Shown one piece after another: positions 17,086 through 52,660 of a DNA stretch of 64,000 nt. A program made the translations under genes and the position numbers. This DNA comes from Ovis canadensis (Eukaryota > Chordata > Mammalia > Artiodactyla > Bovidae): contig NC_091257.1 in assembly GCF_042477335.2 (NCBI RefSeq), positions 49,694,501 to 49,758,500 on the forward strand. The letters are read 5' to 3'. A model generated the notes under the pieces. It was not told the DNA's origin, ran no database searches, and worked only from the letters and a program-made list of their open reading frames with translations. Each line of letters starts with the position of its first letter. The first letter of the stretch is position 1.

Positions 17086-17296
17086 AGTAAAAGTGTTAGT
17101 CGCTCAGTCATGTCTGACTCTGTGACACCATGGACTGTAGCCCGCCAGGCTTCTCTGTCCATGGAATTCTCCAGGCAAGAATGCTGCAGTGAGTTGCCAA
17201 TCCCTTCTCCCGGGGATCTTCCCAACCTGGGATTGAACCTGGAGTCTCCCATATTGCAGGCAGATTGTCTACTGTTTGAGCCAACAGGCAAGCCCA
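17086..17296 (-). mobile_element. Bov-tA SINE
   Basis: Reverse complement: gtgttagtcgctcagtcatg end first, then ccatggaattctccaggcaa, and the tRNA head at the right (tattgcaggcagattgtcta, gagccaacaggcaagccc). Imperfect flanking repeats atccttctaaag and aatcctttcaaaag. Confidence 0.92.
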
Positions 17297-38899: not shown

Positions 38900-39345
38900 C
38901 CAAACATACTGCAACAGAGAGAGGATATTTTAATGGACACCTACCACCTTGATTCTATCAATACAATGAATGTTTTCCCGTACTTGCTTTATGCCATATC
39001 TGTCCAATTGTGTATCTACCCACCAAACTTTCTCGTTTTAAATGAAGCACTGCCAAGTGAACTAGAGTCATCAGTACATGCGTGCATGCATGCTGAGCCG
39101 CTCAGTTGTGTCTGACTCTTTGTGACCCCATGGACTGTGGCCCACCAAGTTCCTCTGTCTATGGAATTCTCCAGGCAAGAATATTGGAGTGGGTTGCCAT
39201 TTCCTTCTCCAGGGGATCTTCCAGACCCAGGGATTGAACCAGAGTCTCCTGCATTGCAGGCAGATTCCACTGTACATACGTACCATATCTTCTTTATCCA
39301 TTCCTCTGTCAATGGACTAATGTTTCTGACTTGGTTGCTGGGACA
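38900..39345 (-). mobile_element. Old L1-like fragment split by Bov-tA
   Basis: gtacttgctttatgccatat and ctgtccaattgtgtatctac before the SINE and atcttctttatccattcctc after it resemble antisense L1M 3' sequence. Low precision at the edges. Confidence 0.45.
39084..39271 (-). mobile_element. Bov-tA SINE, head truncated
   Basis: Reverse complement from gctgagccgctcagttgtgt to gcattgcaggcagattc; the outer half of the tRNA head is missing. Flanking gtacatgcgt (39074-39083) and gtacatacgt (39272-39281). Confidence 0.9.
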
Positions 39346-47457: not shown

Positions 47458-47742
47458 CCAAAGCGAAAGTGAAAGTTGCTCAGTTGAGTCCGACTCTTTG
47501 TGACCCCATGGACTATAGCCCACTAGGCTCCTCAGTCTATGGGATTCTCCAGGCAAGAATGCTGGAATGGGTGGCCATGCCCTTCTCCAGGGGATCTTCC
47601 TAACCCAGGGGTTGAACCCAGGTCTCCCGCATTTCAGGCGGATTCTTTACCATCTGAGCCACAAACGAAGCCCAAGAATACCAGAGTGGGTAGCCTATCC
47701 CTTCTCCAGGGGATCTTCCTGACCCAGGGATCAACCCTCCAG
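47458..47742 (-). mobile_element. Bov-tA SINE plus a partial second body
   Basis: A full reverse-complement Bov-tA (47458-47672, head gagccacaaacgaagccc) is followed without spacer by a second piece of body, 47673-47742 (gagtgggtagcctatccctt). This longer arrangement recurs in ruminant genomes as far as I remember. Confidence 0.87.
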
Positions 47743-49640: not shown

Positions 49641-49939
49641 CCCCAAGCTATAAAATTGTTACAGATTTCATCTGGGATTAGGGAGCAACATCCTTCCCCT
49701 TGTTGTTGTTCATTCTCTAAGTTGTGTCTGACTTTGTGACCCCATGGACTGTAGCCTGCTAGGCTCCTCTGTCAATGGGATTCTCCAGGCCAGATTACTG
49801 GAGTCGGTTGCCATTTCCTTCTCCAGGGGATTTTCCCAACCCAGTGATCAAATCTGCATCTCCTGCATTGGCAGGTGAATTCCTTATCATCTGAGCCATC
49901 AGGGAAACTCCCCAAGCTATGAATTTGTTACATATTTCA
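49641..49939 (-). mobile_element. Bov-tA insertion with 3' extra sequence, between 30-bp repeats
   Basis: The Bov-tA itself is 49699-49909 (reverse complement, ttgttgttgttc tail on the left). Direct repeats starting ccccaagctat lie at 49641-49670 and 49910-49939 with 27 of 30 bases equal. A further 29 bp (49671-49699) sits between the SINE tail and the left repeat, as expected for a read-through transcript that carried 3' flanking sequence. Confidence 0.8.
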
Positions 49940-50480: not shown

Positions 50481-50694
50481 CTATGTGGGAATTTCTGATC
50501 CCTGAATTTGCAGCGTGTTTGCTGTGCAGGGACAAAGCCTTGCCTCCAGAGCCCTTGGTTTCCAGGGTTATTAATTATTGACTGGAGTTGTATTAATACG
50601 TCTTTTGTGACCTGGACATTATTGACTGGAGACCTATCAATACATTTTTAGAGAGTGATAACAATTAGCATCACTGTGGGAAGTTGTTAAGAGC
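50481..50694. other. Flank with 26-bp direct repeat
   Basis: attattgactggag followed by 12 similar bases occurs at 50574-50599 and 50618-50643 (22 of 26 equal). Otherwise unassigned. Confidence 0.6.
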
Positions 50695-51239
50695 TTAAAA
50701 TTGATCAAGGGTTCATTATACAGCTTAACGATTTTCGTTATCTTCACACTTTGCTCCGTTAGGTTTTTGTTTCCACCTTGTGTATATTATAAAACTAAAA
50801 TTTTCAAAAATGACACACTGCAAAATTTTGATTGAAGAAGAATTTTTCCGTGAATTTTATGCAGATACCTTCTCTAACTGTCTGAGTGGCATATATAGAA
50901 GGGTCTCAGAAGATAGTTCTTCAGAATATAATTCTGATTCAGACGGTGTGAATATCAGACCAACAAAAAGACAGAAAATCTTAGTGACTGATGCTGATTC
51001 GGAAAGTGAACATGAAACTCACGGTGCTGGAGGGTGCTCCTTTGTTTCTACAGAAGAGTAAACTGATAATAAATATTTCACGAAAATTAGAAGACCATAC
51101 AGGTGTGTTAGGTGTTACTTATTGAACGTGATATCCACAAAGTGTTAGCAAAATAGAAGAATTAATTTTTGGCTGGCCAAAAGAAAACTGCCAGCCAAGA
51201 GCATTAGTCTCTGCAAAAATCCCGTGGTCAATGAGTTAA
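50695..51239 (+). mobile_element. piggyBac-like DNA transposon, internally deleted (candidate)
   Basis: A 545-bp unit bounded by TTAA at 50695-50698 and 51236-51239, the target site used by piggyBac transposases. Inside the left TTAA stands attgatcaaggg. The reverse complement inside the right TTAA gives attgaccacggg: 10 of 12 positions agree, with a 2-base offset. A subterminal hairpin, ttggctggc (51169-51177) with gccagccaa (51190-51198), lies near the right end. The unit carries one short acidic open frame and is far too small for a full transposase of about 580 residues, so it would be non-autonomous. Seen: TTAA ends, inverted repeats, open frame. Inferred: the family. Alternatives are a host-derived sequence or another DNA-transposon class. 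Confidence 0.5.
50810..51061 (+). CDS. Acidic 83-residue protein, possible piggyBac transposase N-terminus
   Basis: The first ATG in the frame is at 50810 with A at -3; the frame itself opens 30 bp earlier without an ATG. The product begins MTHCKILIEEEFFREFYAD, then has a Ser/Asp/Glu-rich stretch (SEDSSSEYNSDSDG, residues about 33-46), a basic patch RPTKRQK that could serve in nuclear import, and a second acidic run (DADSESEHE). This order, acidic then basic then acidic, is usual for piggyBac transposase N-termini; no DDD catalytic core is present. After the TAA the same frame reads on for 28 codons, with RRPYRCVRC, reminiscent of the Cys-rich C-terminus of such enzymes. Expression is unknown and it may be a fossil. 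Confidence 0.4.
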   Translation: MTHCKILIEEEFFREFYADTFSNCLSGIYRRVSEDSSSEYNSDSDGVNIRPTKRQKILVTDADSESEHETHGAGGCSFVSTEE

Positions 51240-51719
51240 TGAGTCAATCAGGCTGTGACTGTGTGTTGGGGGCAATCAGAGCCCAGTGTAGACCGAGGCT
51301 GTATCTCCTGCCCTCAGTGGGTGCGGACGAATCCTGGGCCAGCAGCTGCAGCCGCTCTCCGGTGCTGCACAGGGCACTGCTGCAGGGCTAGCAGGCTGCA
51401 TGGGCCTCGGGCTGTGTCCCTCAGGCCTCCTTGTCTCTCTCCTTTACTGGCATCCTAGGGATGGTGTGTGGTGGCCAAGGAGAAACCAGAACCTCCGGAT
51501 TCCCTTTTTTACAAGTCTTTGTCCACTTTCTTTAACACACAAGCAGGCTATGGGCAGGCCATCCAGCCCCGGTCTCATATTACACTCCACTCAGTGAGTG
51601 TCACCAGCCCAACAAATTCCTGAAACACCAGGTAACGGCAGAAAATATGCCACAATTTCTTTCAGGATAGTCAAGATTAGAAAACATATTTCTAGAGGGG
51701 ACAGCCAAAAACTTATTTT
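51240..51719. other. Unassigned DNA
   Basis: GC-rich around 51290-51430, no recognised repeat or exon. Confidence 0.4.
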
Positions 51720-51985
51720 TCATATGATAATTATAATTATATATTTATAATTAGGATAAGTTACAAAAAGATAATTGTAATAATAAATATATAATCAAAA
51801 TAAATTATCATTATAATATGTTATAATAATTATAAATTAAATGTTAGTTATATTTTATAATCATAATACATAAGTATTATAAATAATTTCTAAACATAAA
51901 TTTAGAAATTTATATTATAATAAATATGCATATATTATAGTCATAGCATATGGTATGAATATGTAAATGTATACCTATATTTATA
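51720..51985 (+). repeat. AT-rich low-complexity tract
   Basis: About 265 bp of almost pure A/T made of ataatta and ttataatt motifs, without a clean tandem period. Confidence 0.9.
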
Positions 51986-52470: not shown

Positions 52471-52660
52471 GTGAAAGTTGCTCAGTCACGTCTGACTCTT
52501 TGTGACCCCATGGACTATACAGTCCATGGAATTCTCCAGGCCAGAATACTGGAGTGGGTAGCCATTCTCTTCTCCAGGGGATCGTCCCAACCCAAGGATA
52601 GATCCTAGGTCTCCTGCATTGCAGGCGAATTCTCTACCAGCTGAACTGCAAGGGAAGCTC
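52471..52660 (-). mobile_element. Bov-tA SINE with duplication
   Basis: Reverse complement, slightly shortened (gactatacagtccatggaat joins two parts that are normally further apart). Flanks atcatcatttaaa (52458-52470) and atcatccatttaaa (52661-52674) differ by one inserted base. Confidence 0.9.

Follow-up and report, generated by a model that had tools for sequence, protein, structure and literature searches.

The question raised by this locus is whether a stretch lying between two TTAA tetranucleotides, in an analysed window of 64,000 nucleotides from Ovis canadensis, is the remnant of a piggyBac-type transposon, and, if so, where the element ends, how it moved and where it came from. The original prediction had proposed a non-autonomous, internally deleted piggyBac element of 545 bp (50695-51239), on the basis of TTAA at both edges, a terminal match of 10 of 12 bases, a subterminal 9-bp hairpin and an acidic-basic-acidic open frame. 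A multicopy family, a transposase N-terminus and a full-length-type copy in the same genome (L040) supported this class of element, and the left border had to be moved. We consider it about 95% probable that this is a fossil non-autonomous piggyBac transposon, which was moved by the transposase of full-length copies and has since decayed.

A search of the host genome assembly (2.97 Gb in 42 contigs) with the 545 bp gave 42 match rows, which represent at least 40 copies, including the window copy, on 20 contigs; scoring covered 40 of the 191 first-look candidates, and the copy number is a lower bound. In their main rows, the remaining 39 copies showed 74-83% identity, and many copies shared the right TTAA end, as would be anticipated for a transposon family. 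From the 40 scored copies, chosen by their likeness to the window, a 677-bp consensus was built, and alignment to this consensus delimited the element as follows.

50568-51239, forward strand: entire non-autonomous element of piggyBac type, about 672 bp long (aligned with the 40-copy, 677-bp consensus)
50568-50587, forward strand: true left terminal repeat, degraded, TTATTAATTATTGACTGGAG (consensus TTAACACATTATTGACTAGAG)
50695-50698, no strand: TTAA previously taken as the left edge; internal, at consensus position 127
51221-51239, reverse strand: right terminal repeat, including TTAA at 51236-51239 (identity drop past the TTAA in 33 copies and TTAA tally)

Both of the predicted TTAA sites are thus present, the right one being the real edge and the left one lying inside the element, and the left border had been set about 127 bp too far inward. 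A border at 50695 was rejected since all 40 copies align further to the left, the weakest extension (L014) reaching only 8 bp beyond the TTAA at consensus position 127. The left starts of the 40 copies on the consensus were at position 25 or lower in 22 copies, at 50-57 in 13 and at 32-119 in 5. In the window, the left end falls at 50568 or 50571, depending on the alignment to the consensus; positions 50568-50574 read TTATTAATTATTGAC where the consensus has TTAACACATTATTGAC, and the left TTAA of this copy is degraded. The consensus ends, TTAACACATTATTGACTAG on the left and TTAACTCATTATTGACCAG on the right (inverted), form terminal inverted repeats in which 18 of the first 24 positions match. 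Similarity extending past the TTAA sites, which the original prediction would have counted against itself, was indeed found at the left, but only up to the true piggyBac end, and therefore the border moves and the class of the element is unchanged.

At the right edge, column identity in 33 copies remains at least 80% through the TTAA and is 30-50% directly after it. By a scripted tally, a TTAA occurs within the right boundary stretch in 23 of these 33 copies, versus 68 of 780 flank 20-mers used as a control, and the remaining 10 of 33 have no TTAA at the right edge; on manual reading, the TTAAs of L016 and L036, which were counted, lie off the edge, and L018, which was missed, has one just outside. 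Manual reading of the alignment also placed the left end exactly at TTAA in 10 of the 22 long-form copies and otherwise in 12, and at least five long-form copies (L003, L006, L026, L035 and L039) have TTAA at both ends. Missing edge TTAAs are as expected for old copies, though not ideal. The flank past the right TTAA (window 51236-51247), TGAGTCAA, nearly repeats the element's own TGAGTTAA, and because of this an alternative alignment can carry the right end from 51239 to 51247.

The left part of the element also contains a direct repeat and several copies of the motif ATTGAYYRGRG.

50574-50610, forward strand: 5' direct repeat, first unit (repeat search)
50577-50587, forward strand: motif copy 1, no mismatch
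50618-50654, forward strand: 5' direct repeat, second unit, 78% identical to the first (repeat search)
50621-50631, forward strand: motif copy 2, no mismatch
50700-50710, forward strand: motif copy 3, one mismatch, left half of the predicted match
51222-51232, reverse strand: motif copy 4, inverted, one mismatch, right half of the predicted match

The predicted 10-of-12 match (between attgatcaaggg, starting at 50700, and the right end read as its reverse complement) therefore exists but is subterminal, since its positions, 50700 and 51222 inverted, are those of the third left motif and the right motif. Among the 890 pairs of TTAAs in the window that are 300-1000 bp apart, none but 50695/51236 shows an inverted match of 10 or more out of 12 within 3 bp of the TTAAs. 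This locus also illustrates how a TTAA inside an element can be mistaken for its edge when a subterminal motif lies next to it. At no more than one mismatch, the motif was found at 17 places in the whole window, four of them in the element, and it is a possible transposase binding site. The long and short left-end forms (consensus 1-100; window 50574-50654) differ by one unit of about 45-50 bp that carries one copy of the motif. The short form, without one of the 5' repeat units, accounts for 13 of the 40 copies, and may have arisen by deletion between the repeats or may be an older form.

Several observations concern the surroundings of the copies. Two of them, L010 and L041 (G000:C26:57826273-57826823 and 57828563-57829041), lie about 1.7 kb apart in opposite orientation, and three others occur within about 50 kb of one contig (G000:C10:33970968-34021293), by local duplication or by repeated insertion. 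No clean empty TTAA site inside repeats was found among the searched sequences, where only L020 and L025 were spanned and the flanks there are other repeats. The L025 flanks also match repeats in the window at 17094-17281, 39100-39267, 47474-47665, 49700-49896 and 52476-52637, which resemble ruminant SINEs. In addition, an AT-rich tandem array with a period of 14 and about six copies is present at window positions 51727-51815, within a longer AT-rich stretch.

The coding content of the element and the site of its internal deletion are as follows.

50810-51061, forward strand: open frame of 83 aa, acidic N-terminus of a piggyBac transposase (frame translation and relatives)
51062-51182, forward strand: transposase relic continuing after a frameshift, KLEDHTGVLGVTY then PQSVSKIEELIFGWPK (residues shared with P0002, P0005, P0015, P0020 and P0035)
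51169-51198, no strand: 9-bp hairpin spanning the deletion junction (arms at 51169-51177 and 51190-51198), imperfect in the consensus
51176-51182, no strand: approximate junction of an internal deletion of about 1.5 kb, consensus 610-616, where L040 has extra DNA

Both the hairpin and the acidic-basic-acidic frame had thus been correctly noticed. In the frame, the mostly acidic stretches SEDSSSEYNSDSDG and TDADSESEHE flank RPTKRQK, and this composition agrees with the long, disordered and mostly acidic N-terminal region described for the piggyBac superfamily (PMC9499001). A protein search with the 83-aa frame gave 31 relatives, and a search admitting longer proteins gave six, including P0032 and three yak proteins with pieces of the frame. 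P0032, which covers 98% of the N-terminal query at 79% identity, then runs into the Pfam domain DDE_Tnp_1_7 (E 4.6e-22), and its best relative of solved structure is the piggyBat transposase (E 2.6e-37). The frame accordingly belongs to a piggyBac transposase, through P0032 and L040, both of which represent the DDE_Tnp_1_7 type, and the window copy retains only the N-terminus. Neither the 83-aa frame alone nor the alignment of its relatives matched Pfam or the PDB; a Pfam scan of the longer relatives and two window pieces returned only a DPCD match far below the cut-off, and of the 2, 34 and 61 pattern matches in IMG/VR and GTDB contigs none was confirmed. Two gene models deserve separate mention: in P0033 (Bos mutus), the N-terminal frame of the transposon is joined to a ubiquitin-conjugating enzyme domain, probably an annotation artefact or else an exonised transposon, and in P0025 the frame gives way to a peptide resembling a translated ruminant SINE, presumably inserted there.

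The internal deletion was revealed by L040, in which the left end (consensus 3-610) and the right end (616-677) are separated by about 1.54 kb of extra DNA that matches, in broken pieces, residues 10-560 of the 567-aa protein P0038. L040 is a broken full-length form of about 2.2 kb in the same genome, with ends common to the short family, and this indicates that the short family arose by the internal deletion of about 1.5 kb. When aligned to P0038, it retains the aspartates of FDKAV, YQDNY and MKGVD, which would correspond to the piggyBac catalytic triad, as well as a broken Cys-rich tail, a possible counterpart of the Cys-rich C-terminal domain of the superfamily; the dolphin protein P0046 has a glutamate at the first of the three positions (LEEAK). 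Another copy, L041 (forward strand), reads past the junction and keeps transposase coding sequence up to P0032 residue 190, and a search for its right end found none. Full-length-type copies are therefore known from L040 and, in part, L041. The deletion is common to the family of at least 40 copies with common ends: the frames of P0015 and P0020 end at the junction, and that of P0035 runs across it into the right end.

These features suggest the following history. An ancestor of this ruminant would once have harboured an active full-length element, about 2.2 kb long and encoding an arthropod-like transposase. In one copy, a deletion would have removed about 1.5 kb from the transposase gene, leaving both ends and the N-terminal coding part in place. 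The shared ends suggest that this short form was moved in trans by transposase from the full-length copies, inserting at TTAA, and the transposase perhaps bound the repeated motif. All copies examined would have decayed since.

The origin of the full-length element was approached through protein relatives. As close relatives occur in whales, namely P0046 from a humpback dolphin and P0051 from a sperm whale, with longest contigs of 3.7 and 108.8 megabases, the lineage is not confined to ruminants. In the tree, P0046 and P0051 group with P0032 and P0066 (support 99/98), and P0032, P0066 and the relatives of the 83-aa frame are probably of ruminant-type origin. The sister group of this clade (96/95) comprises one wasp, one ant and four spider rows together with P0038, P0039 and P0044, and the two clades join at a fork of 13 rows (100/99). 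P0046, which comes from a decayed element, shows 72% identity to P0038, 64-67% to Araneus, one Argiope and Cataglyphis (over 214-235 aa), 62% to Mischocyttarus (over 114 aa), 49-56% to two other Argiope rows, Polistes, Blattella and Harpegnathos, 46% to a fish and 36% to a beetle; its best relatives of solved structure are piggyBat (E 2.3e-81) and piggyBac. With arthropod transposases as the nearest named outside relatives, these protein comparisons suggest horizontal transfer between very different animals, which is the likelier history because such likeness across phyla is hard to obtain vertically. At roughly even odds in our judgement, an arthropod-type piggyBac element may have entered the ruminant-whale ancestor some 50-60 million years ago by this route, spawned the internally deleted short form and died out, as a lineage missing from the literature entries listed for this mammal group. 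Vertical descent from an old vertebrate piggyBac, with no transfer between phyla, is a possible but doubtful alternative. It gains from the long residence of piggyBac-derived sequences in vertebrates, from the presence of a fish protein in the tree, though a distant one, and from the protein search itself, which works from exact 5-residue matches and would overlook diverged relatives elsewhere among vertebrates; but the whale and ruminant-type proteins are sister to those of spiders, ant and wasp with P0038, P0039 and P0044, the fish protein is far off, and even the decayed P0046 keeps its high identity to Araneus, one Argiope and Cataglyphis.

A young age for the family was rejected, and the burst is old, because the cores of the 40 copies lie at a mean K2P of 0.130 from the consensus (0.104 without CpG-type sites; range 0.082-0.167; window copy 0.134). 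The divergence of the whole element was 0.158 (0.132 without CpG-type sites), and the core value is preferred because the former is inflated by the forced alignment of short-form copies. With a substitution rate of 2.2e-9 per site per year, an age of about 47-59 million years would follow. Decay of the frame was near-neutral: the three codon positions changed nearly alike (0.115, 0.110 and 0.124), and, in the comparison with expectations from the family's noncoding parts, the change rate was 0.116 versus 0.127, the nonsynonymous/synonymous ratio 2.66 versus 2.98 and stops 2.8% versus 3.4%, with a raw pN/pS of 0.63. Across the family, rather than at single loci, the coding sequence was not kept by selection in the way of a domesticated gene, and we rejected selection on the frame, with no sign of a protein in use. 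It is accordingly very improbable that the N-terminal frame is a peptide maintained by selection, such as a truncated transposase acting as a regulator: although the frame is open in the window copy and both pN/pS and the small deficit of changes point that way, the deficit is only about one tenth in a family-level test with near-even codon positions, and most relatives are broken or have different end points. The deficit may stem from the period when copies descended from working elements. A chance likeness, or an element of another class (a LINE, LTR or hAT fragment) with accidental TTAA, is scarcely credible: TTAA is common in this AT-rich 64 kb (279 occurrences) and the first left border was wrong, but 40 copies have the same ends, and the joining of the P0032 N-terminus to DDE_Tnp_1_7 and the piggyBac transposase between the family ends in L040 refute both chance and another superfamily.

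The fossil piggyBac transposon can be compared with several known systems. MER85 elements of primates are non-autonomous piggyBac derivatives with an internal deletion, which PGBD3 mobilised in trans, and they resemble this family in their short terminal repeats, TTAA targets and internal deletion, as well as in the trans mobilisation proposed here (PMC3459987). By description, MER85 is shorter, at 140 bp versus about 677 bp here, and joins roughly the first 100 bp of its parent to the last 40; unlike MER85, this family keeps the N-terminal coding part and a duplicated left motif. The human elements MER75, MER75B and Looper are piggyBac-like, with TTAA, terminal repeats and subterminal inner repeats, and are likened to this family by description only (PMC12324416). 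The left end of piggyBat, from Myotis lucifugus, has recurring motifs that resemble those of this left end (PMC11707139). piggyBat is active, in bats, whereas this family is decayed; it is the best solved relative of P0032 and P0046 and was not included in the tree. For the transposases of Araneus, Argiope, Cataglyphis and Mischocyttarus, which belong to the sister clade, the likeness rests on proteins. For the transfer of piggyBac into mammals, the hosts named in a 2018 review are mouse lemur and vespertilionid bats (PMC5857283). Among the titles and abstract beginnings of the literature matches listed, we found no native piggyBac family of ruminants or whales, and it is quite possible that Repbase or Dfam already holds an entry for this one.

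If this reading is true, the ruminant-whale lineage joins the mammals with a piggyBac invasion of their own. As the transposase stands closer to proteins of spiders and ants than to the single fish protein of the tree, transfer across phyla becomes testable. Scoring single copies as present or absent in whales, hippos, pigs and camels would give the invasion a date and supply phylogenetic markers.
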